DNA of 39,737 nucleotides from Flavobacteriaceae bacterium (GTDB lineage Bacteria; Bacteroidota; Bacteroidia; Flavobacteriales; Flavobacteriaceae), in NCBI GenBank assembly GCA_016744615.1, contig JADGEA010000010.1, forward strand, positions 1-39,737, written 5' to 3'. The position numbers were made by a program, and so were the translations under genes. A model generated the notes under the pieces. That model searched no databases. It was not told where the DNA came from and saw only the letters and a list, made by a program, of their open reading frames with translations. Positions 2,953-29,456 of this stretch are shown piece after piece (within the stretch, counting starts at the first letter, position 1; every line of letters begins with the position of its first letter).

Positions 2953-5900
2953 TTAAAAATTAATATTAAAATTCAAACCATAAGATCTGGTTGATGGTAA
3001 TGAACCTACTTCCATATAAGTACCTGATGTTCCACTACTATAACCTGCTTCGGGATCAATATCACCAGCAGCATTATAAATAAAGAATAAATTAGTTCCT
3101 ATTGCTGACACGCTCAAAGATTGAATAGGTGAATTTTGCATCATTCTTTTTGGAAAATTATACGTTAATACAATTTCTTTTATTCTTACATTTGTGGCAT
3201 CCAACATCATATTGGTAACAATTTGATTGGAAAAAACCTCTGAGAGTTGTTTGTTTAAAGCTGGTATTGCAACCGTATTAGGTGCACCTGTATTTTCATT
3301 GATACCATCATAAACAATTCCTCCAACTCTTCCTTCTAAAGATCTTTGATCTGTTCCAAAGAACATTCTATAACCTCGTCCGTGGGAATAAAATACACCT
3401 CCATATTGACCACTGATCGTAGTTCTAAGTGATATATTCTTGTATTTGAAATTATTGGTAATACCACCATAAAAATCAGGAGTCACAGAACCAAAGTTTG
3501 TTATTTCCCCTTTGCTGATAGTTCCATAATCACTCACCAATATCCTACCAAAATTATCACGTTTAAAATCTACGCCATAAATACTACCAAACTCCTCACC
3601 CGGTCTTGCCTCTACAGTTACACCTGCATTCTTATTAGAACCTAAAACAATACTCTCTAAACCTTCATTTAATGACTCAACCATTGAGGTACTTTGCGTA
3701 TAATTAAGACCCATATCCCATCTAAAATTATCCGTTTGAACCGGAATTAAATTCAGACTAGCTTCAATTCCTGTATTTTTTATACTTCCTGCATTTACAA
3801 CTTTACTTGAGAAACCAGAAGTTCCTGAAATTGGAACAGCCATGATCTGATCGGTTGTCAAGGTCTCATAATAAGTTACATCTAAATTGATGCGGTTATT
3901 AAAAAACCCTAATTCCATTCCTACTTCCCATGATTCTGAGTGCTCAGGTTTTAGGTCTACCGCCGGAAGACTTCCCGGAATAGATGCTACAGAATAATCT
4001 AGTGTTGGTGTTTGGTTTACATTATAAACAGATTGGGTTCTGTATGGTCCAGTGTCATTACCTACAGTAGCATAAGAAGCCCTTAACTTCCCCATATTAA
4101 ATGTTTTTGAGTTAATGCCAAACAGCTTTGTAAACAACAAACTTGCGTTTTCTGAATGATACCAGTACGAATTATTATCAGAAGGAAGAGCAGATGAGTT
4201 GTCATTTCTTAAAGTAGCATCAAAATAAAAGAAGCCTCCATAACTTAACTCTGCCAATCCATAAAATGAATACACATTCTTTTTCCAGCTATAATCACTA
4301 CTATAAGAATTTTTATAATTAGATATTCTGTAAAAATCTGGTGTTTTTTCATCTTTACCCGAAACACCAATAGAGCTACCAAATTCACTTCGGTAATTAG
4401 CTCCTAAACTTGCATTTATACCAATTCCAACAACGCTTGTTTTATAAGTTCCCAAAATATCAGAATTCCAAATAGTTGATTTACTTGTACTATGCGAATA
4501 ATTTCCTAAACCTTCTGAAATTGCACGAGCACCTCTTGCTGCATGACTTACTCCATCTCGAATAATATAATCCATTCCTGATTTACCTGTAAATAACAAA
4601 TGTTCATTCACATCGAATTTTGCGGATACTACTCCTTGAATCCTGTCTTTTAGATCTTCATTATATACATTATCTAAAGCCCAGTACGGGTTTACATAAG
4701 TGGGGTCATTTAGAGGGTTCAACTCATTTCCATTAGCATCTACCGTATTGTTTTTAAGATCTTCTAAACGAACATCCGGAGCCATTAATGAAAGCTGCAA
4801 AGAAGTATTTGAAGGCCCTTCAGCTAATTCTGGTCTATTTTTCACCTTTGCTCTAATATAACTAACTCTTCCATCTACACTAAATCTATCGGTTAAATTA
4901 GAAGACGCTCTTAAATTATAGGTTTGTTTTTTAAGTGTATTATTTGGAACAATACCTTGAGAATTCTGATCGGTAATAGATAATCTAAAACTATTCTTTT
5001 CAGAAGCACCCTGAAAAGCAATTGTATTTGTCGAGTTTGTTCCCATTTGATAAAACTCTTTAAAAGGATCTGGTTGTGGAGAAAAAGTATCTTTTTCACC
5101 TAACCAGTTCGTATATTCCTGACCTTCCATTTTTGGACCCCAACTCCAAGAGAATGGATAATCTCTTACCGGTCTACCATCAGGACCGATTGGTGCATGC
5201 TGATCAAAAGCACCTGTCCCATATTCGTTTTGTAAGTCTGGCGAAAGCATAATATCCGTTACAGTAAATGATGAAGACAAAGACACTCCAATACCTCCTT
5301 TTCTTTCACCTGTTTTGGTAGTGATGATGATAACACCATTCATACCTAAAGAACCATACGCTGCAGATGCACCTGCCCCTTTTAAAACACTAATAGATGC
5401 CACATCATCGGGATTGATATCAGAAAGTGCATCACCACCATCGGTACCTCCCCACTGACTTGCACCACTACTGCCTCCACCAACAGGAATTCCATCAATT
5501 ACAACCAATGGCCGGTTCGAACCGGAAATTGTAGTAATACCTCGTAATAAAATTCTACTGGAACCATCAACACCTGTATTTGCCTGTGTGATCTGAAGAC
5601 CAGAAACTTTCCCCGTAAGGGAATTCATTACATTATTATCTTTTACAATATTTACCTCCGCAGCATCAATTTGTGCAACCGAATACCCTAAAGATGCTTT
5701 ATCTCTCTCAATATTCAATGCAGTAACAACTACTTCATCTAATTTATTCTCATCAGCCATTAAGGCTATACTGATAACTGATTGATCTCCTACTGTAATT
5801 TCTTGGGTTATAAAACCCATATATGAAAATACTAAAATGCTATTAGCATCTACATCTTTGATAGCAAAATTTCCGTCAAAATCGGTTATTGCTCCCTTAC

Positions 5901-6045
5901 TTGTTCCTTTAACAAGGACACTTACTTCTGGTATTGGCTGATTTGAATCTTCTTCAAGAACTTGTCCTGACACCATTTTTTGCGCATAGACTGAACCTGA
6001 TAAAGTAAATATCATTACGCCTAGTAATAATAATAATTTGTTCAT
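2953..6045 (-). CDS. SusC-family TonB-dependent outer-membrane transporter
   Basis: The 1030-residue protein has a signal peptide (cleavage near SVYAQ, residues 18-22) and a carboxypeptidase-regulatory-like beta domain at about 24-108 ([27 protein letters not shown]). A TonB-box region [20 protein letters not shown] follows near residues 103-122. The plug is next ([51 protein letters not shown]), then a long beta-barrel ending in the aromatic NFNINF. This is a full-length SusC. It imports an oligosaccharide or similar ligand with SusD. It is the first gene of the operon, and its promoter region carries the TetR-type operator found at two other units in this window. Confidence 0.95.
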
Positions 6046-13378: not shown

Positions 13379-14902
13379 TTAATTTTTATTAAACCTTTCA
13401 AAATTTATATTCTGATATGCTTTCTTTAAACCATAGTAGATCACTTTATAGTTTTTAAACATTTTTTGATAAACATCTTTGTGATTCTTTCGAGGAAAAT
13501 AGCTTTTTGATACCGGATTAAACTCTTTGATTCTACCAAAATCATTCTCTAGTCCTAAACCAACAAAAGCAGTCATTGCCGAACCAATGGCTCCTGCCAT
13601 TTTAGGATTCTCGGTAATACGCAATTTAATCTGAAGGATATCACTTAGACTTTGCATCCATGCACCATTTTGTGAACCACCTCCAATCACTGTTATCTCA
13701 TTGATTTCAATTCCAAAATCTTTTTGAATATTATCAATCGTCCATTTCAAATTATACCCTATTCCTTCGAGCATAGCACACATAATGTGCCCGCGATTAT
13801 GTTCCAGTCCTAAATTAAAAATGGTACTTCTTACGGTTATATCTGTAACAGGTGTACGCTCCCCCTGAAACCACGGAGTAAAGATCAGATCATCGGCTCC
13901 TGCCGGAATTTCGCTCACTTCCTTTTCCATTAATTCATATATATCAACACCTTGCTCCTTCTCTTTTTTATAGAATTTATTCAATGCCCATTCCACATTT
14001 ATACCTGCTGATTCTGTAATTCCCACTAACAAACTTGAACTTGGATCTGCACTTTGCAAACTCGCCACACCATTTTTAAATTTGTGGTTTTTTTGAGAAC
14101 TCACTCCAATCCATGCCGAAGATCCCAAATAAATATGAGCCTGATGGTGATCTATTTGTCCGGAACCCATTGCGGCAGATTGTGTATCATCACTTCCTCC
14201 AAATATTTTAACACCAGTGGTAAGCCCTAATTCCTGAGCTGCTTTTTTCGTTAAGCTCCCTACCAGATCTGTAGATTTTACCAAATCAGGTAGTTTGTTT
14301 ACATCAATACCTGCCACCTTAAAAAAAGTTTTTTCCCAATCTTTTTTATTTAGATCAAAACCATAACTACAAGCTCCTGACCATTCGGCAACCATTTTAT
14401 TGGTACACTTATATTTTAAGTAACCATTAACATCTAAAAATTTATAAGTGTTCTTATAAACCTCAGGCAATTGTTCTTTTACCCATAACAACTTAGGTAT
14501 TACATCTTTACCGGATAATTTAATTCCCGTGATCTTCTTAAAAATAGATTTACCTAAGAATCTATTCATTATTTTATTGGATTGACTATTTGCTCTAGCA
14601 TCAACCCAAGAAATATTTTTATAGAGCAAAGCGCCTTCTTTATCTACTGGAATAATTCCCATTGCCTGAGTAGAAAAAACCATTGCCAAAATTTGATCCT
14701 CTTTATTTAATTCACTTACTACCTTACGGGTTGTTACACAAATAGCTTCCCAATAGTCCTTTGGATCTTGCTCTACCCATCCCGGTTTGGGAAAATCAAT
14801 TCCATAGCTTTTTTCAAATGAATCATACACCTTTCCATCTGTACCAATAAGCACAGCTTTATTACTTTGTGTACCTACATCATGTGCTATTATGTAATTC
14901 AT
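13379..14902 (-). CDS. FGGY-family carbohydrate kinase
   Basis: The 507-residue protein shows the FGGY fold. The N-terminal domain has the phosphate loop DVGTQSNK (8-15) and the sugar-site motif WVDARA (99-104). GGSDDTQSAAMGSG (235-248) holds the putative catalytic Asp238. The C-terminal ATPase domain has IGGGSQNGAWMQSLSDI at about 411-427 and AGAIGSA. FGGY kinases phosphorylate xylulose, fuculose, rhamnulose, ribulose, erythritol and related polyols; the substrate here is unknown. The gene is first in the operon and is followed by the aldolase with a 1-base gap, a kinase-aldolase pair typical of deoxysugar or pentulose catabolism. It is divergent from the MFS gene across the shared operator. 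Confidence 0.9.
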   Translation of the reverse strand: MNYIIAHDVGTQSNKAVLIGTDGKVYDSFEKSYGIDFPKPGWVEQDPKDYWEAICVTTRKVVSELNKEDQILAMVFSTQAMGIIPVDKEGALLYKNISWVDARANSQSNKIMNRFLGKSIFKKITGIKLSGKDVIPKLLWVKEQLPEVYKNTYKFLDVNGYLKYKCTNKMVAEWSGACSYGFDLNKKDWEKTFFKVAGIDVNKLPDLVKSTDLVGSLTKKAAQELGLTTGVKIFGGSDDTQSAAMGSGQIDHHQAHIYLGSSAWIGVSSQKNHKFKNGVASLQSADPSSSLLVGITESAGINVEWALNKFYKKEKEQGVDIYELMEKEVSEIPAGADDLIFTPWFQGERTPVTDITVRSTIFNLGLEHNRGHIMCAMLEGIGYNLKWTIDNIQKDFGIEINEITVIGGGSQNGAWMQSLSDILQIKLRITENPKMAGAIGSAMTAFVGLGLENDFGRIKEFNPVSKSYFPRKNHKDVYQKMFKNYKVIYYGLKKAYQNINFERFNKN

Positions 14903-16504: not shown

Positions 16505-18001
16505 ATGATTTTTAAAAATAGATTTAATTTTAGAATAATAACGGCAATTATGATTGCTGGTGTTTTTGCGTTAAATTCCTGTCAAAATAAAGACCCTCAA
16601 GAAAAATCGATCTTATTATACTGTGCTGCAGGCGTTAAACCAGTTGTAGAAAAAGTTGCACAAGAATATTATAAGGAATACGGTATTCGTATTGACCTGC
16701 AATATGGAGGTTCCGGCACATTACTTTCTAATTTAAGAATTGCAAAACAGGGCGATCTTTATCTGGCTGGTGACAAAAGTTATATCGATGAAGGAATAGC
16801 ATATGGATTTATCAAAGAAACGCAACCTTTGGCTTTTATGAAACCGGTAATAGCTGTTGCCAAAGGAAATCCGAAAGGAATACAAACCATTGAAGATCTT
16901 TTAAATGAAAATATCAAAGTAGCAATTGCTAATCCGGACGCAGCATCTATTGGTCGTCTTACAAAAAAAATATTATCCAAATCAGGCCAGTGGGAAGACC
17001 TTAAAAATAATGTTACTGTTTTAATGCCAACTGTAAATGAGGTGGCCAATAGCATTAAAATTGGAGCAATTGATGCAGGAATCATCTGGGATGCTACGGC
17101 AAACCAATATGAAGAACTGAATTTCATAAAGGATCCTGTCTTAAACAAGCATACTAAAAATATCACCATTGGAGTATTAAAATACTCCAAAGACCCTACA
17201 GAAGCACTCCAATTTTTGAGATATTTATCAGCCAGAGATAAAGGATTACCCATATTTAAAGAATTAGGCTACCAACCCATTAAAGGGGATATCTGGGAAG
17301 AAAATCCACAACTTTTATTTTTTAGCGGAGGTGTTAACCGACTCGCAATTGACCATACCATTCAGAAGTTTGAAAAAAGAGAAGGAGTTGATGTTGCCAG
17401 AGTTTATAATGGTTGTGGCATATTAGTCTCACAAATGAAAACTGGACAAAAACCTGATGCTTATCTTTCCTGTGATATTTCTTTTATGACCCAGGTTGAA
17501 GATAGATTTACTGATATTACCGATATTTCTAAAACCAGAATTGTAATTGCAACAAAAAAAGGAAATCCAAAAAACATTCAAAATTTGGATGATCTGACCA
17601 AAGAAGGTTTACAAATAGGAATTTGTAACCATAAACAAAGTGCTTTGGGTTCGCTTACCAAACGACTACTAGAAAGTAAAGAAATTTGGGATGAAGTATA
17701 TAAAAATGTACGATCTCAGACACCAACCGCAGACCTTTTGGTCAATCAGATACGTACAGGCTCTTTAGATGCAGTTATTGTGTACGAAGCTAATATTTCA
17801 CAAGTAAAAGACAAACTGGATATGGTGAAATTAAATGATCCCCAGGCCATGGCGCTTCAAAATTATGGTATTTCTAAAAATTCAGATCATCAATACTTGA
17901 TGAAACGACTTTTAAATACTTTGACAAATACCAGTTCAAAAAAAAATTATTTGGATTTAGGATTTAGCTGGGAATTTAATGATTTAAAAAATAATGAATA
18001 A
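16505..18001 (+). CDS. Tandem ModA-like periplasmic-binding lipoprotein
   Basis: The 498-residue protein has a lipoprotein signal with Cys26 (ALNSC). Two ModA-type binding domains lie in tandem, about 33-262 and 272-490. They align with each other: YGGSGTLLSNLRIAKQGDLY against YNGCGILVSQMKTGQKPDAY, KGNPKGIQTIEDL against KGNPKNIQNLDDL, and IGAIDAGIIW against TGSLDAVIVY. Usual ModA proteins have one domain. In the second domain, Cys replaces Ser (NGCG) and Gly (LSCD) in the two loops that line the oxyanion pocket of ModA. It is the first gene of a seven-gene operon with ModB- and ModC-like partners, but its ligand may not be molybdate. Confidence 0.85.
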   Translation: MIFKNRFNFRIITAIMIAGVFALNSCQNKDPQEKSILLYCAAGVKPVVEKVAQEYYKEYGIRIDLQYGGSGTLLSNLRIAKQGDLYLAGDKSYIDEGIAYGFIKETQPLAFMKPVIAVAKGNPKGIQTIEDLLNENIKVAIANPDAASIGRLTKKILSKSGQWEDLKNNVTVLMPTVNEVANSIKIGAIDAGIIWDATANQYEELNFIKDPVLNKHTKNITIGVLKYSKDPTEALQFLRYLSARDKGLPIFKELGYQPIKGDIWEENPQLLFFSGGVNRLAIDHTIQKFEKREGVDVARVYNGCGILVSQMKTGQKPDAYLSCDISFMTQVEDRFTDITDISKTRIVIATKKGNPKNIQNLDDLTKEGLQIGICNHKQSALGSLTKRLLESKEIWDEVYKNVRSQTPTADLLVNQIRTGSLDAVIVYEANISQVKDKLDMVKLNDPQAMALQNYGISKNSDHQYLMKRLLNTLTNTSSKKNYLDLGFSWEFNDLKNNE

Positions 18002-18076
18002 AAAATAATCCATATCAAAACAGAGTACGCAAATACAAAACCTTTAACCGTTAGATCTAACCTCCCGTTTTATTTA

Positions 18077-18835
18077 ATGATGGGAATCATGGCTTCCACT
18101 TATATTATTTTGATTGTAGCCATGATCATTGCAGATATGTCTTATACAACTCCTAATCATGTTTTATCTGCCTTGAAAAGTGAAGAGATTCAATATGCCA
18201 TAAAACTGAGTTTGATCACCTGTACCGTTACCATGGTTTTAAGTTTACTGGTAGCCATACCTTTGGGTTACCTTATGGCTCGATTTGATTTTCGTTTTAA
18301 AAAATTACTCGATGCTATTATTGATATTCCCATTGTTTTACCTCCTTTGGTAATTGGTTTAAGTTTATTGATCCTTTTTCAAACAGCTCCTGGGCAATTT
18401 ATTGAAAGTCATGTGCGAATAACATATACTGTTTACAGCATTGTAATTGCTCAATTTATGGTTGCAACTGCATTTGCTGTACGAACCATGTATGTAACTT
18501 TTGCCCAGATCAATAACCGGCAAGAACAGGTTGCTTTAACTTTGGGCTGTAATCAAAAACAATCCTTTTTTTATATTTTATTACCACAGGCCAAAAACGG
18601 AATTTTAACTGCTGCATCTTTGGCATGGGCGAGAGCATTAGGAGAATTTGGACCCATTTTAATATTTTCAGGAGCAACCAGAATGCGTACCGAAGTCTTA
18701 CCTACTACTGTTTTTTTAGAAATGTCAGTAGGAAATATTGAAGCTGCTGTTGCAGTCTCTTTAATTATGATTGTTTCCGGATTTTCAGTTTTGATGATCG
18801 TAAGACTATTTGGAGATAAAAAAACAATTCGATAA
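18077..18835 (+). CDS. ModB-like ABC importer permease
   Basis: The 252-residue protein has about six membrane helices and the binding-protein-dependent permease signature near ARALGEFGPILIFSGATRMRT, the EAA-type loop that contacts the ATPase. It is closest to the ModB/WtpB/CysW group. The frame is open upstream to base 18002 and continues from the ModA-like gene with only its TAA (17999-18001) between them. The upstream stretch KTEYANTKPLTVRSNLPFYL looks like natural permease N-terminus but has no standard start codon. I take the ATG at 18077 as the start. The ATPase follows with no gap. Confidence 0.88.
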   Translation: MMGIMASTYIILIVAMIIADMSYTTPNHVLSALKSEEIQYAIKLSLITCTVTMVLSLLVAIPLGYLMARFDFRFKKLLDAIIDIPIVLPPLVIGLSLLILFQTAPGQFIESHVRITYTVYSIVIAQFMVATAFAVRTMYVTFAQINNRQEQVALTLGCNQKQSFFYILLPQAKNGILTAASLAWARALGEFGPILIFSGATRMRTEVLPTTVFLEMSVGNIEAAVAVSLIMIVSGFSVLMIVRLFGDKKTIR

Positions 18836-19489
18836 ATGATCCATTGTAAAGACCTACATATCAAACAAGGAGATTTCACTTTAAATGATATCAATTTCCG
18901 TATAAAAAAAGGAGATTATGTGGTAATGATGGGGAAAACAGGTTGTGGTAAAACGACAATACTCGAATGTATTTGTGGATTGAGAAATATCGATTCCGGT
19001 GAGATCAGGGTCAACGGAACAGAAATTTCAAAATTTACTCCTGCACAAAGACAAATAGGTTATTTACCTCAAGATGGAGCTTTATTTCAAACCATGACCG
19101 TTGCACAAAACATAGGTTTTGCTCTAAAGATCAGGAAATGGGACAAGCAAAAAACAGAGGAAAGAGTCAATGAACTTGCAAGATCATTAGAGATTAGTAA
19201 ATTATTAAAAAGAAAAGCTCACGATCTGAGTGGTGGTGAAAAACAACGTGTTGCACTGGCAAGAGCCCTTAGTTTTTACCCTGATGTTCTATGTCTGGAT
19301 GAGCCTTTAAGTGCTTTGGATGAAGATACTGTAACTGAAATGTACGATCTTTTAAAAGAGCTGAAAAACAACCATAAAATAACAGTTCTCCATATTTCAC
19401 ATTCTAAAATAGATGCTCTTAAACTGGCTGATAAAGTTTTGATTTTTGAAAATGGTACTATAAAGAACATAAATACGAGTGAATTGTAA
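18836..19489 (+). CDS. ModC-like ABC importer ATPase
   Basis: The 217-residue protein has all ABC ATPase motifs: Walker A GKTGCGKTT (33-41), Q-loop YLPQDGALF, signature LSGGEKQRVALARAL, Walker B VLCLDEPLSALD and the switch His in VLHISHS. It lacks the C-terminal MOP/TOBE molybdate-binding domain found in classical ModC. Its ATG directly follows the permease stop, so the two are translationally coupled. It should drive import through the ModB-like permease. Confidence 0.9.
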   Translation: MIHCKDLHIKQGDFTLNDINFRIKKGDYVVMMGKTGCGKTTILECICGLRNIDSGEIRVNGTEISKFTPAQRQIGYLPQDGALFQTMTVAQNIGFALKIRKWDKQKTEERVNELARSLEISKLLKRKAHDLSGGEKQRVALARALSFYPDVLCLDEPLSALDEDTVTEMYDLLKELKNNHKITVLHISHSKIDALKLADKVLIFENGTIKNINTSEL

Positions 19490-19501
19490 TAAATATTTAT
19501 T

Positions 19502-20638
19502 ATGCTGATTATCAAAGAAATAATTTATAGAAAGTTTAATTTTTTAATGGGACTTTTAGGTATGATTATCATTGTAGGTTTTGTTGTAGCCTTTTACACC
19601 ATCACACAGGCTACAAAAAATGAGACTAGATTATTAACCAGAAATATGGGCTTTAATGTAAGGATCATTCCCAGTGAAACTGATATGAATCAGTTTTGGA
19701 TGGGAGGCTATTCTAATCTTACCATGTCTCAAGATATAGTGGACAAACTAATTGATGAAAGATCTATCAATTATGCACACCTAACAGCTACTTTGCATAA
19801 AAAAAACGTTTGGAAAAACAAAGAGGTAATCCTTACCGGAATCTCAAAAGACGAAAAAGAACCTTCCGGGAAAACCAAATCTAAAATGATCTTTGCCATT
19901 GCAAAAAACAAGGTTTATATGGGTTATGAGCTTGCAAATCAATTTCAAATCAAAAAAGGTGATAAAGTTATTTTTTTTAAAAAGACTTTTGAAGTTGAGA
20001 AAACCTTATCAGAAACGGGAAGTGAAGACGATATTCGTGTTTATTTTGATTTGGAAACCCTGCAAAAACTTATCAACATGGAAGGTCGGGTAAATGAAAT
20101 AATGGCTCTAAACTGCATGTGTTCCACAGATGGAGGAGATCCCTTAGGAGAATTGAGGGCTGAATTGAATAGAATTGTTCCAGAAGCAAAAGTGATTATG
20201 AATGCAACTATTGCCAATGCCCGTGAAGACCAACGAAAAATGACTGATAAATATTTTGCTTTTTTATTCCCGATTATATTGATCATCTGTGCAATCTGGC
20301 TAGCATCTGTTGCCATGACCAATGTAAAAGAAAGAACCCATGAAATTGGGATCATGAAAGCACTAGGGTTTACAAGCTGGAAAATTAGTACACTTTTCTT
20401 TTTACGCGCTTTTATTATTGGTTTGCTTGGTGCTGTGCTTGGGTTTTTATTAGGATCTGTACTTTCTTTTTATTTAGGTCCAAAAATATTTAACCTTACC
20501 ATTGTTTCCGTCAAACCATTATATCACTTACTGTACTGGGCAATTTTTATCGGACCCTTATTTGCTGCCCTAACTTCACTGATTCCTGTATTGTGGGCAG
20601 TAAGCCAGGATTCAGCTCAACTTTTAAAAGAACAATAA
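19502..20638 (+). CDS. MacB/FtsX-family ABC permease with periplasmic CxC motif
   Basis: The 378-residue protein has the FtsX layout: one N-terminal membrane helix (about 14-35), a periplasmic domain of ~215 residues, then three C-terminal helices (about 252-275, 297-325, 342-366). The cytoplasmic coupling segment is VKERTHEIGIMKALGF. Proteins of this type work as mechanotransmission or export permeases with LolD/MacB-like ATPases, and the next gene encodes such an ATPase. The periplasmic domain contains LNCMCS with Cys205 and Cys207, which is not a general feature of FtsX/MacB/LolC proteins. Two other products of this operon also carry CxC motifs. Confidence 0.87.
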   Translation: MLIIKEIIYRKFNFLMGLLGMIIIVGFVVAFYTITQATKNETRLLTRNMGFNVRIIPSETDMNQFWMGGYSNLTMSQDIVDKLIDERSINYAHLTATLHKKNVWKNKEVILTGISKDEKEPSGKTKSKMIFAIAKNKVYMGYELANQFQIKKGDKVIFFKKTFEVEKTLSETGSEDDIRVYFDLETLQKLINMEGRVNEIMALNCMCSTDGGDPLGELRAELNRIVPEAKVIMNATIANAREDQRKMTDKYFAFLFPIILIICAIWLASVAMTNVKERTHEIGIMKALGFTSWKISTLFFLRAFIIGLLGAVLGFLLGSVLSFYLGPKIFNLTIVSVKPLYHLLYWAIFIGPLFAALTSLIPVLWAVSQDSAQLLKEQ

Positions 20639-20639
20639 G

Positions 20640-21299
20640 ATGATAGAATCACAAAACACAACTAAAATATTCAATTCCACTAAGGAAAAAGTAATTGCCT
20701 TAAATGATATCAATCTTAATGTTAAAAAATCAGAATTTATTCTGATAAAAGGAGAAAGCGGAAGTGGTAAATCCACCTTATTATTCATTATGGGAGGAAT
20801 GCTAAACCCAACTTCCGGTAAAATGATCGTAAATAATAAAGATCTCTTTACCTTATCAGAAGGAGAAAGAGCAAAATATAGAGCAAATGAAATAGGTTTT
20901 GTTTTCCAGTCCTATCACTTATTACCCTATTTAAATGTGCTGGAAAATATTATACTCTCAGGTAAATTACCCAAAATTAATATTACAAAAGAAGAAGTTT
21001 ATAAAATTGCCAGAGAATTGGGTATTGCTGATAGATTAAACCATAAACCCGCTCAATTAAGTGCCGGTGAAAAACAACGAGTTGCATTGGCAAGAGCTTT
21101 AATTACGAAACCCTCCATCATTTTAGCAGATGAACCCACAGGGAATTTAGATGAAAAGAATACGATCGAGGTTTTGAATTACTTAAAATTATTTCAAAAA
21201 AAAGGTGGTACAGTAGTTATGGTTACACATGGAAATCTGGCAGACAAATACGCTACCCGAACCATCCAATTAGAAAAAGGAAAATTAATAAAAAAATAA
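20640..21299 (+). CDS. LolD/MacB-type ABC ATPase
   Basis: The 219-residue protein has Walker A GESGSGKST, a Q-loop in FVFQSYHLLPYLNVLEN, signature LSAGEKQRVALARAL, Walker B IILADEPTGNLDE and the His switch VMVTHG. The Y-x-LLPxLxVxEN pattern and TGNLD are typical of the LolD/FtsE/MacB branch, partner of FtsX-type permeases. The ATG follows the permease gene after one base, so the two form a pair. The signature has Ala in place of Gly (LSAGE), which is seen in some members of this branch. Confidence 0.9.
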   Translation: MIESQNTTKIFNSTKEKVIALNDINLNVKKSEFILIKGESGSGKSTLLFIMGGMLNPTSGKMIVNNKDLFTLSEGERAKYRANEIGFVFQSYHLLPYLNVLENIILSGKLPKINITKEEVYKIARELGIADRLNHKPAQLSAGEKQRVALARALITKPSIILADEPTGNLDEKNTIEVLNYLKLFQKKGGTVVMVTHGNLADKYATRTIQLEKGKLIKK

Positions 21300-21306
21300 A
21301 CAAAAC

Positions 21307-24300
21307 ATGAAAACTAAAATACTGTTGTTTTTAGTTATTACTTTATTGATCTTTAGTTGCAAAGAAAAAGAAAGTACCCCACAGGACTGGGCTCAATTTA
21401 AAAAAGACAATTACCGAAGTGCAAATTCTCCTGTTCAACTAGATCTTACAACTTTTGGACAAGACTGGAAATATACTGCCAGCCAAATGCCTTCGCCTGC
21501 TTGGTATGGTCCTGCAAAAGAAGATACTTATGCCAAAAGCGGTCCCTTACCTTCCATGAGAGATTATGATTTATCTTTTTATCCAATTGTTGTGGGAACA
21601 AAACTTTATTACGGTTCAACTGCTGATGATGCAATTCATTGTTTAGACACTAAAACAGGAAAAGAAAAATGGGTCTACACAACAGGTGGTCCAATTCGAA
21701 TTGCTCCTACCTACCATAAAGGAAAATTATATTTTGGATCGGATGATGGTTTTGCATATTGTATAGATGCTTCTGATGGAGACCTTATTTGGAAATTCAC
21801 CCCAAAAGAAGATCAACCTAAAAAGGTGATGAATAATAATTCTTTGATCTCTTTTTGGCCTATTCGAACCGGTTTATTAATTGAAAATGATATTGCATAT
21901 TTTGGTGCATCTTTGCTTCCCTGGAAAGAGTCCTATTTCTGTGCTGTAAATATCAAAACAGGTAAACCTGATATAAAGGGGACTTATATTAAAAAATATG
22001 ATGATCTAACTTTAGAGGGTGCAATGGCCTCCACAGGAACAAAAATCATACAACCACAAGGTAGAATATCACCTATGTTTTTTAACAAAAATGATGGCGT
22101 TAGCAAAGGTCAGTTAGCTGGAACAGGTGGTTGTTTTGTGTTGGTTACACCCGAGTTAAATATTGTTCATCCACAAACTTCTAGGGAAAAAAGTATTATA
22201 GAAACCTTAATTAGTGATCCCAATCAAATTTCTGATAGCAATGGTAAAAAGGCGCAGTTTATGACCTTTAAAGGAGGTAAAGAAATGGTGGTCAATGATA
22301 GTGTCAGTTACATCCTTACCGATAATTCTATTTCAGCTTACAACAGAAATACTAAAAAAGTAATCTGGCTTCAAAGAAATTATCAGGCACATAGAATAAT
22401 TCTTGCAGGAGATGTACTCTATGTAGGTGGAACAGATAAAGTTTATGGGGTAAGTACCAAAAACGGACTTCCAATTTGGGAATCTTCCGTAAACGGAACT
22501 GTAAATGCGATCATAGTTGCTGATAATGCTCTATTTGCTTCTACCCGGGAAGGAAGTATTTATTGTTTTAGAAATGGGTTTAAGAATAACGCTTTATTGA
22601 AAAAAAACAAAGATAAACCTGCAGAGATTGCCAAAGCAAAAGTTACTGAACGAAAAATTATCAAAAGAAACTTTGATTTTTATGCCGGACCTTTTATCAA
22701 TGCTATAGACCCAAATACCATAGAAATTCATTTTATTACAAAAACACCATTAAAATGTAGCATCAACTGGGGTGACGAATTTAAACAGGAAATGATAGAG
22801 GAAAATGAAGCAAATACAGATCATAGAATTATCATACCTCATATAAGAAAGGATTTCAATTATCAATATCAAATTGTTTCCGGTGACGAAAGGTCCAAAT
22901 TCTATGAATATGATAATATGTTTAATTATACAAAACATAAAAATTCAAAAAAGGATTCTAAACAAAATGTAGAAATAGTTATTGCTGAAATATTGAAATT
23001 AAATCCATCCGATAAGGGAATTTGTATTGTATTAGGAGAAAAAAATAAAGATCTGGCTTTGGATATTGCCAGCAATTCTGAAATGAAAGTTTTGTTATTT
23101 GAAAAGTCAGCATCCAAAGTAGATCAATTGAGAAAAGAATGGCAAAAAACAGGTTTTTACGGAGGAAAAATAGTAGTTCATCAGGTAGCTGACTATTCTA
23201 AATTACCTATTACAAGTGATATTGCTGAACTTGTTTTGGTAAATGATCCATCCATTATAAATGCAAAAGAAATAATTCGATTGATAAAACCTGAAGGATA
23301 TGCTGTTTTACTTGACAAAGAAGAAACATATAATAAATGGTTTGATTCAGCTGAAAATCTTTGGCAAGTGGAACAAATTAATAAAGATTCAAAATTATAT
23401 TTAAAAAAGAAAAAAATTGAAAATATTGGAAAATGGACACATCAATACGGATTAGCAGATAATAGTGCTTTTGGTGGCGAAAGTCTTTGGGGATCTACCT
23501 CTACAGAAGATTTTGAAATCCAGTGGATGGGGCGTCCCGGACCAAGATTCCAAACAGACAGAAGTGGCAGAAAACCTTCTCCACTTGCCGTAAATGGAAA
23601 AATGTTTGTTCAGGGAAAAGAACGGGTTCTTGCCGTTGATACTTATAATGGAAAAATATTTTGGTCAAAAGAAATTCCAGAAATGGTAAGAATGAATTTA
23701 CACCATGACTGCAGTAACTGGGCTGCTGATGATGATTTTCTGTATATCGCTGTAAATCAAAATTTAATAAAACTCAATAGTCAAAACGGAAAAATTGATA
23801 AGATCTTCCCTGTTGATCCAAGCAAAAATAACGTCCCTAATGAATGGGGATATATTGGTGTTTTGGAAGATAAAATGATTGGGTCTTCCACTCAAAAAGG
23901 AAGCGCTTTTAAAAACTATTATGGAGGTGCTGGTTGGTATGATGCACAGACTGGACCAATGACATATAAAGTAATGAGTTTTGCTTTATTTGCGAAATCA
24001 AAAAATAATGGAAAAGAGATATGGAAATATGAAAAACCTACATCTGCAATTATAAATTCAACCATAACAATTTCAAATAAACAGATTAGTTTTATAGAGT
24101 CACGCAATCCAAAAATGGAACTAAGCAAAAAAGGAAGAGGAAAAAGCGACATTTTTAAAAATTTATATATGGTATCTCTTAATGTAGATACAGGTAAAGT
24201 TAACTGGGAGAAAAAACTAGATACAGAACCCGGAATTACAACTTATTTTATGGCTGCCAGTAAAGATTATAACGTAATTGTTTCTTCGTTTAAAGGCAAC

Positions 24301-25653
24301 TATTATATCTATAATTATAATGCAGGAAATGGTGATCTAGTTTGGGAAAAAGAACAATCTTGGTTTTCTGATAACCATGGTGGACATTTATCACGACCGG
24401 CCATTATTAAGAATAAACTGATCGTCAAACCTGCTATTTACGCTCTGGATACCGGTGAAAAATTAAAGATGGTAATCCCAAAAGCCGGACATGGCTGTGC
24501 CTCTTATGCCTTATCAGAGCAATCTGCTTTTTACCGTGGAGGAAGTGTTACACAATTCAATTTTGATACTGATAAATTTTCCAAATGGGAAAGATTACGT
24601 CCGGATTGCTGGATTAGTACAATTCCGGCACAGGGCATGGTATTATCACCCGAAGCTGGAGGAGGTTGCAGTTGTGGTAATTGGCTAGAAACTTCTATGG
24701 TTTTTGCACCAATTTCCAGAGCTCCTTTATCATTGATCTACAAAGAAACTCAATTTATTGATTCCTTATCCATAGAGATCAAGGCAAGAGATATTTCGAA
24801 TAAAAACATTTATTATACCCTTGACGGAAGTAAACCTTCAAAAGATTCAAATCATTATATAGCTCCTGTAATTATTTCTAATAATACGACTTTAAATACT
24901 ATTATTTATGTTGAAAAAGAAGGTGAAGAAATAACTTTTACCCGGACAAAAGATTTTACAAGATTATTTCCGGAACCAAGTATTCAAAAAAACCCTCAAC
25001 TGGTTGATGAAAACTGGGTGTTTTATATCAATCGAACAGGTGTAACAGGTAAAATCCATTATACAACCGATGGATCTACACCAGATAAAAACTCTCCTAA
25101 ATATGTTAAATCCGTTCCTTTTTTAGAAAAAACACTAATCAAAGCGAAAACATTCTGGACAGATAATGGAAAAGAAATAGTGAGTAAAGAGACAAGTGCA
25201 GAACTGATGATACCTAAATTGATAGAAAGTATTTCCGCAAAAGCAAAACCGGGAATTATCAGAAACTATTATAAAGTAAAATATAGAGATATGCCAGATT
25301 TTAATACGGTTGAACCGGATCACAAAAAGATTGTTAAACAGGTAGATCTGGAATCGATCAAAGACAAAGGTAAATTTGCGCTTCATTTTAACGGTTATCT
25401 CCAAATTGAAAAAGATGGTTTGTACACTATTTACAATCAATCCATTGGTGAATCTTATTTGTATTTACATGGGGAAAAAATATTGACAAATGAGAATAAT
25501 TCTGAACAAAATATTGTTTTAGGCTTAAAAAAAGGATTACATCCCATTATTGTAAATTATAAGATATGGAGAGGAAATCCAAACCTAAATTTGCAAATAG
25601 AAGGTCCTAATTTACAAAAAGAAGCAATTGACAAAAACATGTTAAAGCACTAA
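21307..25653 (+). CDS. Giant lipoprotein: PQQ-type beta-propellers, Rossmann insert, chitobiase-like and PA14 domains
   Basis: The 1448-residue protein is a lipoprotein (Cys18 in LLIFSC). A first PQQ-repeat propeller covers about 27-425 (CLDTKTGKEKWVYTTGGPI, CIDASDGDLIWKF). A Rossmann/methyltransferase-like segment lies at about 550-680 (GICIVLGEKNKDLALDIA, IRLIKPEGYAVLLDK). The second propeller covers about 690-1150 (AVDTYNGKIFWSKEI). Two chitobiase-C-like repeats follow (YYTLDGSKPSKDS, HYTTDGSTPDKNS), then a PA14-like end (about 1340-1445). Conserved-looking cysteines cluster in propeller 2: HHDC802, HGC1064, PDC1101W and GGC1121SC1123GNW. I recall similar proteins from Planctomycetes; their function is unknown to me. 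The gene is embedded in the ABC operon and presumably acts at the envelope surface. Confidence 0.8.
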   Translation: MKTKILLFLVITLLIFSCKEKESTPQDWAQFKKDNYRSANSPVQLDLTTFGQDWKYTASQMPSPAWYGPAKEDTYAKSGPLPSMRDYDLSFYPIVVGTKLYYGSTADDAIHCLDTKTGKEKWVYTTGGPIRIAPTYHKGKLYFGSDDGFAYCIDASDGDLIWKFTPKEDQPKKVMNNNSLISFWPIRTGLLIENDIAYFGASLLPWKESYFCAVNIKTGKPDIKGTYIKKYDDLTLEGAMASTGTKIIQPQGRISPMFFNKNDGVSKGQLAGTGGCFVLVTPELNIVHPQTSREKSIIETLISDPNQISDSNGKKAQFMTFKGGKEMVVNDSVSYILTDNSISAYNRNTKKVIWLQRNYQAHRIILAGDVLYVGGTDKVYGVSTKNGLPIWESSVNGTVNAIIVADNALFASTREGSIYCFRNGFKNNALLKKNKDKPAEIAKAKVTERKIIKRNFDFYAGPFINAIDPNTIEIHFITKTPLKCSINWGDEFKQEMIEENEANTDHRIIIPHIRKDFNYQYQIVSGDERSKFYEYDNMFNYTKHKNSKKDSKQNVEIVIAEILKLNPSDKGICIVLGEKNKDLALDIASNSEMKVLLFEKSASKVDQLRKEWQKTGFYGGKIVVHQVADYSKLPITSDIAELVLVNDPSIINAKEIIRLIKPEGYAVLLDKEETYNKWFDSAENLWQVEQINKDSKLYLKKKKIENIGKWTHQYGLADNSAFGGESLWGSTSTEDFEIQWMGRPGPRFQTDRSGRKPSPLAVNGKMFVQGKERVLAVDTYNGKIFWSKEIPEMVRMNLHHDCSNWAADDDFLYIAVNQNLIKLNSQNGKIDKIFPVDPSKNNVPNEWGYIGVLEDKMIGSSTQKGSAFKNYYGGAGWYDAQTGPMTYKVMSFALFAKSKNNGKEIWKYEKPTSAIINSTITISNKQISFIESRNPKMELSKKGRGKSDIFKNLYMVSLNVDTGKVNWEKKLDTEPGITTYFMAASKDYNVIVSSFKGNYYIYNYNAGNGDLVWEKEQSWFSDNHGGHLSRPAIIKNKLIVKPAIYALDTGEKLKMVIPKAGHGCASYALSEQSAFYRGGSVTQFNFDTDKFSKWERLRPDCWISTIPAQGMVLSPEAGGGCSCGNWLETSMVFAPISRAPLSLIYKETQFIDSLSIEIKARDISNKNIYYTLDGSKPSKDSNHYIAPVIISNNTTLNTIIYVEKEGEEITFTRTKDFTRLFPEPSIQKNPQLVDENWVFYINRTGVTGKIHYTTDGSTPDKNSPKYVKSVPFLEKTLIKAKTFWTDNGKEIVSKETSAELMIPKLIESISAKAKPGIIRNYYKVKYRDMPDFNTVEPDHKKIVKQVDLESIKDKGKFALHFNGYLQIEKDGLYTIYNQSIGESYLYLHGEKILTNENNSEQNIVLGLKKGLHPIIVNYKIWRGNPNLNLQIEGPNLQKEAIDKNMLKH

Positions 25654-25656
25654 AAT

Positions 25657-26760
25657 ATGATAAAGCCTTTGAAATTTATTTTAGTTTTACTTTTGGTAAT
25701 GTCTTATTCTAATGCCAGAGCATGCCGTTATACCATCAGAGAAATTGGTTTTTCTACCCTATCAAAGGTTACCTATGTGCTGTACCGAATTGATAAAAAC
25801 TCCTCTTTTATTCCAAAACAGCAAATGGATAATTTTTCCGATTCTAATGTGAAAATATTTGGGCTGAATTTAAAAGACGATAAGTCAAATAAAGTCATTC
25901 TATTTGCTAAAAATCAAGATCTGAGTTTTCCTGTTTATGTTCTTGTTGCTCCAGACGGACGAATGTTAGCACTCACCGGTGATCAATTTCAAAACAACAT
26001 AGAATCTGCAACCATATTATCTCCTGTCAGACAACAACTTATTGATGATCTGCCAAAAGGATATGCTACTGTTATTCTGATAGAAGGGATAAATACAAAT
26101 GAAAATAGCTTGGCTAAAGAAAAGGTTTTAAAAGCATGTGACCGAGTGGAAAACATCATACCTCATATGCCTAAACAGGTTGCAAACGGACCTAGAATGA
26201 TCGTTGTTTCTAATGGTGAATTCGAGCAAGAAAAAGTGATGCTTTGGAGTTTTGGTTTAGACAAAATACCAGATCATCCTATTGCTTTTGTTGTTTATGG
26301 CAAAGGAAGAATTATGGGTGATAGCATTAATTATTCAGAGATTCAAAAAGGAAAAGTATATAAATTATTATCTATTATTGGGGCAGATTGTGAATGTGGT
26401 TTGGACAGAAAATGGATGTTGGGATATCAAATACCTTTAGACTGGCCTACAGAAACCAGACAAAATTTAAGTGATATTCTAGGTTTTGATGTGGATAATC
26501 CAATGGTTTTAACAGAGATGAGCCGGATATTGGCCATTGAAAACAGAGTTGCAGCTGACCCGGATGGTATTTCTTTTGAACCAGTTGTTATTGATCTGGA
26601 AAAAGAGTTTAATGATGTTCCTGAAGTTGCACATAATGAAAATCCCCCTTCTCAGGAGGATTCTCTCAATTCAAAATTAATTATTACCTATTCTTTAATT
26701 TTTGTTATTATTTTAGTTGGCTTAGGCTCCTACTTTGTATTAAAGAAAAAACCAGATTAG
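25657..26760 (+). CDS. Cys-motif exported protein with C-terminal membrane anchor, unknown function
   Basis: The 367-residue protein has a signal peptide (about 1-21) and then ACRYTIREIGFSTL, placing Cys23 at or near the mature start. A mixed alpha/beta domain follows, with GADCECGLDRKW carrying Cys245 and Cys247, and a single membrane helix at about 341-362 with a short KKKPD tail inside. The topology is therefore a periplasmic domain anchored in the inner membrane. I do not recognise a characterised family. It is the last gene of the seven-gene operon, 3 bases after the propeller gene. The CEC motif parallels CMC in the FtsX-like permease and CSC in the propeller, so I infer a shared metal or redox task. 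Confidence 0.72.
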   Translation: MIKPLKFILVLLLVMSYSNARACRYTIREIGFSTLSKVTYVLYRIDKNSSFIPKQQMDNFSDSNVKIFGLNLKDDKSNKVILFAKNQDLSFPVYVLVAPDGRMLALTGDQFQNNIESATILSPVRQQLIDDLPKGYATVILIEGINTNENSLAKEKVLKACDRVENIIPHMPKQVANGPRMIVVSNGEFEQEKVMLWSFGLDKIPDHPIAFVVYGKGRIMGDSINYSEIQKGKVYKLLSIIGADCECGLDRKWMLGYQIPLDWPTETRQNLSDILGFDVDNPMVLTEMSRILAIENRVAADPDGISFEPVVIDLEKEFNDVPEVAHNENPPSQEDSLNSKLIITYSLIFVIILVGLGSYFVLKKKPD

Positions 26761-27583: not shown

Positions 27584-28603
27584 TTAAACTTCATCATCCC
27601 AGTTATCATCCTCTTCAAAATCTTTCCCCATCAGTTCTCTTAATTTTTCGATAATTCCATTAGCATCGAGCTTATAATGACTGTACAGATCCTCTGGATA
27701 TCCAACTATTGAGAATTCATCAGGAACACCAACCTTGTCAAATGCACAGCCCATACCACTTTCTACAATCACCTCAGCAACTGCGCTACCCAATCCACCA
27801 AAAGTATTGTGTTCTTCAATAGTAAGAATTCTTCTCGAATTCTTTACCGCAGCAATAATTACCTCACGATCAATGGGTTTAATGGTGTGCATATTAATCA
27901 CCTCTACACTTATATCATCATTTTCTTTTAGAAAATCAGCGGCTTCTGCTGATTGTAAAACTCCGATTCCTGTGGCAATAATCGTTATATCTGTTCCTTC
28001 ACGAAGTTTAACCGCTTTACCAATTTCAAAACCATAATCTTCATTTTTATAATAGGTTGGTTCAAATCCACGACCAATTCTAATATATACCGGACCTTCA
28101 TGTGCAATTGCAGCACGAACAGCATTAGCAGTTTCAATTCCATCTGCTGGAACAATAACCGTCATGTTTGGAAAAGCTCTCATGATAGAAAGATCCTCCG
28201 TACAATGGTGCGTAGAACCCGCTGAACCAAATGATAATCCAGCATGTGTTGCAATAATTTTTACATTTAAATTCTGATAACAAATATCCGTTCTTACTTG
28301 TTCTGCAGCACGCATAGAAGCAAAGGCTGCCATGGTGGAAACCACAGGTAAAAGTCCTGATTTTGCCATTCCTGCAGCTACTCCAAAAAGATTTTGCTCC
28401 GCAATTCCCAAATTAAAAAATCTCTCAGGGAATTCATCTCCAAATTTTCCAATTTTTGTTGATTTTGCTAGGTCTGCCGTTAATGCAACAATATTCTGAT
28501 TTTCTTTTCCAAGATCGGTTAAAACCTGTCCGTAAATTTCTGCCTGTGTTAAGGTGTCAGCATCATAAACCGTCCACGTTGTTCCTAATATTTCTTTTGA
28601 CAT
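27584..28603 (-). CDS. Transketolase C-terminal subunit (Pyr and C-terminal domains)
   Basis: Starting at the ATG at 28603 (MSKEILGTTW), the protein has 339 residues. An upstream in-frame start at 28663 would overlap the partner gene and add a lysine-rich stretch, so it is rejected. It has the pyrimidine-binding domain with catalytic Glu69 in FNLGIAEQN, MAAFASMRAAEQVRTDICY, and GSTHHCTEDLSIMR. The C-terminal domain follows (TIIATGIGVLQSAEAADFL). It pairs with the TPP-binding half encoded directly upstream (19-base gap) to form one transketolase. Split transketolases often serve special catabolic ketose or ketol reactions instead of the central pentose-phosphate cycle. Confidence 0.93.
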   Translation of the reverse strand: MSKEILGTTWTVYDADTLTQAEIYGQVLTDLGKENQNIVALTADLAKSTKIGKFGDEFPERFFNLGIAEQNLFGVAAGMAKSGLLPVVSTMAAFASMRAAEQVRTDICYQNLNVKIIATHAGLSFGSAGSTHHCTEDLSIMRAFPNMTVIVPADGIETANAVRAAIAHEGPVYIRIGRGFEPTYYKNEDYGFEIGKAVKLREGTDITIIATGIGVLQSAEAADFLKENDDISVEVINMHTIKPIDREVIIAAVKNSRRILTIEEHNTFGGLGSAVAEVIVESGMGCAFDKVGVPDEFSIVGYPEDLYSHYKLDANGIIEKLRELMGKDFEEDDNWDDEV

Positions 28604-28622
28604 TTTTTTGTTTTTTTGAGTT

Positions 28623-29456
28623 TTAACTATTTGCAGCGATAGATGCTTTTGCTTTTTCAACAACTATTGAATCAATACTTCCGTAATGCCATTCTGTTTT
28701 GTCTTCCATAAAATCAATACCTTTTCCTTTAATTGTATTGGCAATAATCACAATAGGTCTCTCAACCGCAGCATTTGCTTTTTCAATAGCAGCATTCAAT
28801 TCATGAAAATCATGTCCGTTTATTTCAATTACGTCAAATCCAAAAGCTCTCCATTTATCTCCTAATGGATCTATAGACATGATATCTTTTACTTCTCCAT
28901 CAATCATTCGTTTGTTAAAATCAACGATCGGAATAAGGGAAGTAACATTATAATGTGCTGCAGCCATAATCGCTTCCCAATTGGAACCTTCATTCATCTC
29001 ACCATCACCAATCACACAGTAAGTTTTATAATCCAATCCTTTTACTCTTCCTGCCAAAGCTATTCCCAAGGAAATTGGTAGTCCGTGACCCAAAGATCCG
29101 GTTGAAGCATCAAGGCCTCTCACTTTAAGACTATCTAAGTGCATCCCGAAAGGGGAATTGAACTGATTAAATGTTTTTAAAGTTTCTTTATCAAAAAAGC
29201 CTTTATTAGCTAATAATGGTGCAAGTCCAACTCCTGCATGTCCCTTGCTCAATATAAACCTGTCTCTATCCTCCAAATCTGGATTTGAAGAATCATATTT
29301 CATGAATTTATTGTAGAGAATGGTAATGATATCCACCATACTCATTGCTCCTCCAATGTGAGCTCCACCTGCCCAAAACGTAACATCAACAATGTCGTTT
29401 CTTAACTTGGCAGCTTCAGCTTTTAAATTATTAAGTTCTTTATCTGTTAATGGCAT
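28623..29456 (-). CDS. Transketolase N-terminal subunit (TPP-binding domain)
   Basis: The 277-residue protein carries the PP domain of transketolase. It has GAHIGGAMS with His33, SKGHAGVGLA with His73, and STGSLGHGLP with His124. The TPP/Mg2+ motif runs from GDGEMNEG (150-157) to Asn181 in IVDFNKRMIDG. Transketolases move a two-carbon ketol unit between a ketose and an aldose or other aldehyde, using TPP. Its length is what is expected for half of the enzyme. It stands between an aminotransferase gene (25 bases upstream) and the C-terminal half. Because the operon is TetR-controlled and also holds an ALDH and SCP2 proteins, its donor may be an unusual substrate. Confidence 0.93.
   Translation of the reverse strand: MPLTDKELNNLKAEAAKLRNDIVDVTFWAGGAHIGGAMSMVDIITILYNKFMKYDSSNPDLEDRDRFILSKGHAGVGLAPLLANKGFFDKETLKTFNQFNSPFGMHLDSLKVRGLDASTGSLGHGLPISLGIALAGRVKGLDYKTYCVIGDGEMNEGSNWEAIMAAAHYNVTSLIPIVDFNKRMIDGEVKDIMSIDPLGDKWRAFGFDVIEINGHDFHELNAAIEKANAAVERPIVIIANTIKGKGIDFMEDKTEWHYGSIDSIVVEKAKASIAANS

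Follow-up and report, generated by a model that had tools for sequence, protein, structure and literature searches.

Introduction

The P19/Ftr1 cluster of Campylobacter jejuni (1649-1656) encodes a DUF2318 protein, two permeases, an ATPase and thioredoxins, and is reported to take part in iron acquisition; its authors state that the cargo of the permeases and the ATPase is unknown (PMC6083913). In this FetMP-type cluster, an importer is grouped with ATP-binding cassette (ABC) permeases, an ATPase, and periplasmic cysteine-containing or thioredoxin proteins. A similar grouping is encoded by a seven-gene operon at positions 16505..26760 of a 39,737-nucleotide stretch from a Flavobacteriaceae bacterium (assembly GCA_016744615.1, contig JADGEA010000010.1, positions 1 to 39,737 of the forward strand; hereafter the window), in which genes of a ModABC-like importer are followed by those of an FtsX/LolD unit, a propeller lipoprotein, and a 367-residue protein. 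The source assembly consists of 565 contigs and is 97.8% complete and 8.35% contaminated. We propose, with a probability of roughly 0.45, that the operon serves the acquisition or handling, at the cell envelope, of a thiophilic metal ion or a metal-sulfur or metal-oxyanion species. The titles and abstract openings listed by searches of the open-licence PMC literature contain no description of the gene set, and the accessible part of PMC7965956 holds nothing on an FtsX-type unit.

Operon organization and invariant cysteine pairs

The seven open reading frames (ORFs) are separated, in order, by 75, 0, 12, 1, 7, and 3 bases, which confirms the tight operon with gaps of 0-75 bases described in the initial annotation. 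A gap of 253 bases lies upstream of the operon, and the downstream neighbour is convergent and 11 bases away. The genes and motifs are:

16505..18001, + strand: tandem ModA-like binding lipoprotein, 498 residues, two SBP_bac_11 domains (Pfam PF13531, two stretches; TIGR01256)
17414..17626, + strand: first to last codon of the invariant cysteines C304, C323, and C374 of binding domain 2
18077..18835, + strand: ModB-like permease, 252 residues (TIGR02141, TIGR01581)
18836..19489, + strand: ModC/WtpC-like ATPase, 217 residues, ABC domain only (Pfam and NCBIfam searches)
19502..20638, + strand: FtsX/MacB-type permease, 378 residues, with a periplasmic CxC (PF02687 and PF12704 over cut-off)
20114..20122, + strand: CMC motif of the permease, residues 205-207
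20640..21299, + strand: LolD-type ATPase, 219 residues (TIGR02211)
21307..25653, + strand: lipoprotein, 1448 residues, with two PQQ_2-type propeller blocks, a Rossmann/methyltransferase-like insert, and CHB_HEX_C/Fn3_assoc and PA14 modules (Pfam, alignment, profile against PDB)
24667..24675, + strand: CSC motif of the propeller, residues 1121-1123
25657..26760, + strand: 367-residue protein (the last protein) with a signal peptide and a C-terminal anchor, both read by eye; residues to about 222 are related to thioredoxin-like proteins of ars operons (hhalign)
26389..26397, + strand: CEC motif of the last protein, residues 245-247

Three of the products carry a CxC motif on the outer face, at the residues where the initial annotation had placed them. 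The alignments show that these motifs are invariant: CSC is kept in 9/9 propellers, the sequence DCECGLD in 8/8 last proteins together with C23, which follows the signal peptide, and CxC in the permeases of 7/7 aligned core loci (six CMC, one CLC). When the residues were shuffled, at least one CxC appeared in 1.5% of the cases for the FtsX-type permease, 10.3% for the propeller, and 3.4% for the last protein; the product is about 5e-5. The conservation of the motifs is a stronger argument than this joint occurrence. A fourth CxC, CIC at residues 45-47 of the ModC-like ATPase (18968-18976), is cytoplasmic and lies just past the Walker A stretch.

Recurrence of the gene set

A contig scan with the propeller identified five loci, all from Bacteroidota: L004 (metagenome-assembled genome (MAG) Flavobacteriaceae bacterium GMC7.metabat2.105), L005 (Bacteroidia MAG), L006 (Marinilabiliaceae MAG), L007 (Snuella sedimenti CAU 1569), and L008 (Carboxylicivirga MAG). 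Similar sets may also exist in Planctomycetes, as the initial annotation suggested. The L004 propeller is 85% and its FtsX 91% identical to those of the window. With L010, L011, L017, L018, and the window itself, ten loci carry parts of the set. The propeller is present in nine of them, and the tenth, L018, is cut by a contig end. FtsX, LolD, the propeller, and the last protein occur together in all six loci where the contig allows it to be seen (window, L005, L007, L008, L011, L017), and these four genes are the core of the system. The L004 contig stops at the propeller. In L006, the propeller is followed by an ORF that encodes a second propeller-like fragment and is truncated where the contig stops, and the last protein is not visible. 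In L018, a TonB-dependent receptor and not the propeller directly precedes the last protein; the far side is cut.

Seven of the ten loci are informative for ModABC, since contig ends truncate L006, L010, and L018, and in five of the seven (window, L004, L005, L007, L008) the importer adjoins the core. The order varies: ModABC comes first in the window, L004, and L007, and the core comes first in L005 and L008. The initial annotation treated the seven genes as a unit. They do recur together in L004, L005, L007, and L008, but the unit is not indivisible, because in L011 and L017 the four-gene core has no adjoining ModABC. These two loci partly count against the unit by the reasoning of the initial annotation, under which homologues lacking the other six genes would refute it, although L011 shares its genome with L004, whose core copy adjoins ModABC. 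The core of L011 (L011:8403-14818) is a second, divergent copy, with a propeller of 1112 residues and a last protein of 427 residues, situated in a glycan gene region.

Searches with the last protein found 3/60 related genomes, the own genome included, and 1/395 genomes of the phylum, which was the own genome. Within the order to which the Carboxylicivirga genome G455 belongs, the matches were 5/247, three of them true (G455, G683, G688) and two ars-linked relatives; in the own order they were 3/395, consisting of the own genome and two weak C-terminal matches. Because of these low counts, we conclude that the set is rare and patchy within the sampled Bacteroidota. The two weak matches of the own order (L062 and L063, genomes G977 and G969; E 3e-4 and 8e-4) are confined to the C-terminal region of the last protein.

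FtsX relatives in metal gene sets

The FtsX-type permease carries its cysteine pair in a periplasmic stretch, and a pair was present in the same stretch of 13/13 aligned FtsX rows (seven core, three ars-type, one of them cut short, two zinc-ribbon/FtrD-type, and one from Pelobacter) compared with 0/4 Escherichia coli controls (LolC, LolE, MacB, and the first part of YbbP). The spacing of the pair is CxC, CC, or CxxC, and the CYDC and CSGC rows do not align column for column. A tree of the FtsX proteins supported an ars group and a CYDC/Pelobacter group. The core rows did not form one resolved clade, and the E. coli branches were very long; therefore, no order of descent was drawn.

The FtsX profile search at E 1e-30 identified 4/395 genomes of the phylum, namely the own genome, G217, G409, and G189. 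The relative in G217 belongs to an ars operon with ArsM and ACR3 over cut-off. In G409 and G189, an FtsX with CYDC adjoins LolD, zinc-ribbon proteins, and an RND transporter, which passes the CusA/CzcA cut-off in G189 and was read by eye in G409; one of the zinc-ribbon proteins of G189 (L028) has an FtrD-like domain, PF10080, and the other a CcmH match. The weak last-protein matches in G501 and G611 are thioredoxin-like proteins whose genes immediately precede that of an FtsX with the motif GCCN. In G611, an ArsR/SmtB-type regulator comes before the pair, and LolD, an ArsC-like phosphatase, ArsM, and ACR3 follow the FtsX; ArsM, ACR3, and the regulator are over their model cut-offs, and the ArsC-like protein is below its own. 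In G501, the pair is preceded by an ArsR-like protein (by eye), and FtsX is truncated by the contig end. The sole plasmid match of FtsX is on pPRO1 of Pelobacter propionicus, where the annotation (L056:7964-18861) lists FtsX, an ABC ATPase, DUF2318, a heavy-metal-associated protein, and CusA/CzcA, with a metal P-type ATPase just before them. The propeller was not seen beside the ars and CusA relatives of FtsX.

Sets of a thioredoxin-like protein with a C-terminal CC and an FtsX with GCCN, followed by LolD where the contig continues, were observed at L020:8890-14971, L026:5407-11021, and L019:1652-3691. The L020 and L026 pairs adjoin ArsM and ACR3, and L019 is cut. It is possible that such sets are an ABC component of arsenic handling.

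The recurrent logic of these loci is an importer or efflux set combined with an FtsX/LolD unit bearing a periplasmic dithiol and with a periplasmic thiol protein. The initial annotation had suggested a machine that would import or sense a thiophilic metal or metal cofactor and insert, display, or export it at the envelope. Because the genes recur, the CxC pairs are invariant, and the FtsX relatives lie in arsenic, metal-efflux, and FtrD/DUF2318 contexts, the link to such a metal is grounded, though indirect.

The propeller lipoprotein

The propeller protein has a lipobox-like FSC at residue 18 (read by eye), and its blade matches fall into two blocks, with PF13360 and PF01011, the latter a model of dehydrogenase propellers, both over cut-off. 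Block 2 contains C802, C1064, C1101, C1121, and C1123, which are invariant in 9/9 propellers with identity down to 33%. From this conservation, we propose that the five cysteines may form one site. The propeller with CSC recognized by the initial annotation is real, but the methyltransferase-like insert and the carbohydrate-type end modules had been overlooked. The insert has no Pfam match in the window copy. In the L011 copy it matches Methyltransf_25 and Methyltransf_11 over cut-off, and the propeller profile matches a methyltransferase in the PDB at E 3e-4. The CHB_HEX_C, Fn3_assoc, and PA14 modules were identified by Pfam in the window protein; the C-terminal modules are absent in L011 and shortened in L017.

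These properties give rise to the main rival explanation, in which the propeller would be secreted as a glycan-active metalloenzyme and the remaining genes would mature it, with FtsX/LolD and the CEC protein loading a metal or metal-sulfur centre on the five cysteines. NosDFY and NosL serve nitrous oxide reductase in a comparable manner. Apart from the five cysteines, the carbohydrate-type modules and the near-constant presence of the propeller (all loci except the truncated L018) fit such an enzyme, as do the glycan genes adjoining L007, L011, and L017 and the score of 51.9 against a cut-off of 26.7 for PF01011, the propeller domain of glucose, ethanol, and alcohol dehydrogenases. PF01011 is, however, a blade-level model, and none of the full-length dehydrogenase models comes near its cut-off (TIGR04528, 51.8 against 650; TIGR03074, 23.6 against 832.65; 6/6 NCBIfam models below). 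PQQ-dependent dehydrogenases feature a vicinal cysteine pair, and there is no CC among the 13 cysteines of the propeller. The loss or shortening of the C-terminal modules in L011 and L017, and the FtsX relatives of ars and CusA gene sets beside which no propeller was seen, also argue against a maturation role. We consider the metalloenzyme explanation rather unlikely.

The last protein

The last protein matches no family in Pfam or NCBIfam, and a search of the PDB with its sequence returned three matches up to E 10, the best at E 0.4 and unrelated. Its alignment to the thioredoxin-like proteins of ars operons reaches an hhalign probability of 95.6% (E 1.3e-8, 18% identity), with three sequences on one side. 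The thioredoxin label is weak, since Thioredoxin_6, the best Pfam match of those proteins, scores 19.3 and 26.7 in the two ars proteins examined, below its cut-off of 27.

The kinship to thioredoxin-like proteins allows for a metal-free alternative, in which the CxC pairs would pass electrons in thiol-disulfide exchange for the folding or repair of envelope lipoproteins. In this alternative FtsX/LolD, which resemble LolC and LolD, would handle lipoproteins. The CEC motif, however, is not an active-site CxxC and falls beyond the region shared with the thioredoxin-like proteins. The similarity to the Lol system is also distant, as the ATPase scores 208.4 bits against a cut-off of 307.75 for LolD (TIGR02211) and the permease 41.2 against 362.45 for LolC/E; the permease is below the curated cut-offs of 10/10 families and the ATPase below those of the best 25 of 199. 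Together with the occurrence of relatives in metal gene sets, this makes thiol-disulfide exchange without a metal improbable.

The ModABC-like importer

The name "ModABC-like" given in the initial annotation designates the right family, but it overlooked that the binding protein is an unusual tandem with cysteines in domain 2. The protein has a lipobox-like NSC at residue 26 (read by eye) and scores 108.2 bits against the ModA equivalog TIGR01256, over the cut-off of 62.5, the match being spread over the two tandem domains. C304, C323, and C374 of domain 2 are kept in 5/5 homologues, and C40 of domain 1 in 4/5. Aligned with the canonical ModA that this genome also encodes, the three cysteines correspond to Ser, Ala, and Ala. 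C304 sits in the GSSG loop of the canonical protein, which here reads NGCG, and domain 1 retains GGSG. In E. coli ModA, this loop holds the oxyanion. The second site of this ModA variant looks built for a soft ligand. The permease scores 156.6 bits against TIGR02141 (cut-off 182.6) and 201 against TIGR01581 (cut-off 210.3), and the ATPase, which was correctly described as lacking the regulatory molybdate domain, scores 172.8 against the ModC equivalog (cut-off 285.05). The equivalogs of the tungstate importer WtpABC are not reached either (WtpB 142.9 against 340, WtpC 226.6 against 440).

The importer could be an ordinary molybdate or tungstate transporter that stands by chance next to a secreted protein and to a MacB/Lol-type exporter unrelated to it. 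In favour of chance are the TIGR01256 score, the two loci with a core lacking ModABC, and Snuella sedimenti (genome G454), where molybdenum-cofactor genes are present and the operon's ModB is the only ModB match at 1e-10; because of this last observation, the operon's importer may transport molybdate in Snuella. The linkage nevertheless recurs across lineages with altered gene order, and a cysteine occupies the ligand loop of binding domain 2. A search with the tandem binding protein in the order of G455 found 1/393 genomes at E 1e-40, which was G455 itself, where the gene adjoins the core. Separate canonical ModA-B-C sets are present in the window genome (G000) and in G017, the latter with a split ModB. 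MoaC was found in 6/9 genomes searched; among the five genomes with the operon's ModABC, it is present in G000, G452, and G454 and was not found in G017 and G455, where gaps of the MAGs are possible (G017 is 90% complete). Because a canonical ModABC exists separately in G000 and no MoaC was found in two carrier genomes, molybdate supply for the molybdenum cofactor alone is an unlikely account of the system and not a sufficient one. A chance neighbourhood with an ordinary importer is, in our view, very improbable.

Accessory genes accompany the importer in some genomes. In L005, L007, and L008, ModC is directly followed by genes for a MoaD-like protein with a terminal GG and for a ThiF/MoeB-like E1 enzyme, and L008 additionally has a MoeB-rhodanese. 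The ThiS family has one match over cut-off in G000, beside a MoaE-like ORF (by eye), and one weak match; its places in the L004 genome are the same as in G017, a genome of the same genus. AOR-type tungsten enzymes have an aor operon with MoaD/ThiF, and such an enzyme was considered as the client of ModABC and the MoaD/ThiF pair. It was rejected because AFOR_C is absent in 8/9 genomes; the one exception is G688, where the single ModB match is weak (3.7e-13) and lies elsewhere in the genome. TonB-dependent receptors are encoded directly before the set in L008 and L018. They are 38% identical over their full length, belong to one subfamily, and match models of haem/siderophore receptors far below cut-off. 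In Snuella sedimenti, a class III aminotransferase over the cut-off for PbfA (hydroxy-aminoethylphosphonate ammonia-lyase) is encoded between the tandem ModA and ModB genes (L007:4120-5454).

Proposed mechanism of metal acquisition

The recurrent combination of a dithiol FtsX/LolD unit with a periplasmic thiol protein and an importer or efflux set, and the parallel with P19/Ftr1 iron acquisition, together speak for acquisition or handling of a metal with thiol-bound transfer. The gene content, recurrence, cysteine-pair conservation, and metal contexts of FtsX relatives were observed here, and the direction, the order of steps, metal binding, the substrate, and any enzymatic activity are inferred in the following scheme. 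In some genomes, the TonB-dependent receptor would carry a metal complex across the outer membrane. The metal or its thiol complex would then be bound by the propeller lipoprotein, through the five invariant cysteines of block 2, and by the anchored, thioredoxin-related CEC protein. FtsX/LolD, with its own periplasmic cysteine pair, may be driven by ATP and release the thiol-bound species or pass it between the propeller and the last protein, which would be a mechanical transfer and not classic efflux. The released species would be brought to the cytoplasm by the ModBC importer with its tandem ModA, where in some genomes a MoaD-like sulfur carrier ending in GG and its E1 enzyme may take part.

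Several observations weigh against this proposal. The TonB-dependent receptor is missing in 8/10 loci, some of which are cut by contig ends, and no MoaD/ThiF pair is present in the visible stretch of the window or of L004. Beside the core, ModABC is absent in 2/7 informative loci (L011, and L017 viewed together with the adjoining stretch L029). The ars and CusA gene contexts serve detoxification, and this could argue for export. The count of 13/13 FtsX cysteine pairs is partly selected, because the rows come mostly from strict-E-value profile searches seeded with CxC proteins, and the E. coli controls align poorly in the stretch of the pair. CxC motifs can be redox-active without a metal, and the thioredoxin label is weak, as described above. 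The propeller passes the PF01011 model and may have an enzyme role instead, which the glycan genes adjoining three of the loci may also indicate.

A more far-reaching version of the metal-acquisition proposal is unlikely: an undescribed, full trace-metal pathway from the outer membrane to the cytoplasm, in which the TonB receptor, the cysteine-cluster propeller, the CEC anchor, and the dithiol FtsX/LolD motor would pass a thiometalate or soft metal complex to the cysteine-bearing tandem ModA, and the dedicated MoaD/E1 pair would supply sulfur for a metal-sulfur cofactor other than the classical molybdenum cofactor.

Other features of the window

Riboswitch control of the operon was considered and rejected, as there was no Rfam match at the gathering score in the window, L004, L005, L007, L008, or L017 (L011 was left out). 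A mobile or viral origin was also rejected: the last protein has no relatives in plasmids, viral contigs, or phages, and the propeller has no plasmid match covering more than 14% of its length and no match in viral contigs. The operon is flanked on the minus strand by transketolase halves (by eye; 27584-29456) and an FGGY carbohydrate kinase (Pfam; 13379-14902). A 1030-residue ORF is located at 2953-6045.

Comparison with known systems

The propeller shares PQQ-type blades, with PF13360 and PF01011 over cut-off, with PQQ-dependent dehydrogenases and BamB. It differs from them in its methyltransferase-like insert, the five conserved cysteines of block 2, and the lack of a vicinal cysteine pair. 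The permease and ATPase of the FtsX/LolD unit belong to the same superfamilies as those of LolCDE, MacB, and FtsEX, but are under the curated cut-offs, and LolC, LolE, MacB, and YbbP of E. coli have no periplasmic dithiol. The importer belongs to the same ABC families as ModABC and WtpABC/TupABC and likewise has one permease and one ATPase. In contrast to these systems, it has a tandem binding protein with cysteines in domain 2, a permease and an ATPase under the family cut-offs, and no extra regulatory domain in the ATPase.

The FtsX and thioredoxin-like pairs of ars operons (G217 and G611, with G501 cut) resemble the core in the cysteine pair within the same FtsX stretch and in the related thioredoxin-like protein encoded directly upstream. 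They differ in having GCCN and not CxC, in that ModABC and the propeller were not seen, and in the ArsM and ACR3 neighbours of G217 and G611.

The P19/Ftr1 cluster is similar in combining an FtsX-type permease, a LolD-type ATPase, and a periplasmic thiol protein, which is a resemblance in kind and not one of aligned sequences. Unlike that cluster, the seven-gene set has a ModABC-like importer, one permease and not two, and an added propeller lipoprotein, and no Pfam or NCBIfam match to FTR1, P19, or DUF2318/PF10080 was listed among its seven proteins. The set may thus work like P19-type clusters, but without their defining members FTR1, P19, and DUF2318. Members of the DUF2318/FtrD family, recognized by Pfam in L028 and annotated as such in L056, also adjoin dithiol FtsX relatives. 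Dithiol FtsX proteins from arsenic, metal-efflux, FtrD, and ModABC contexts thereby become one recognizable kind, and with the visible cysteine partners that the seven-gene set offers, the cargo of dithiol FtsX/LolD units becomes directly testable.

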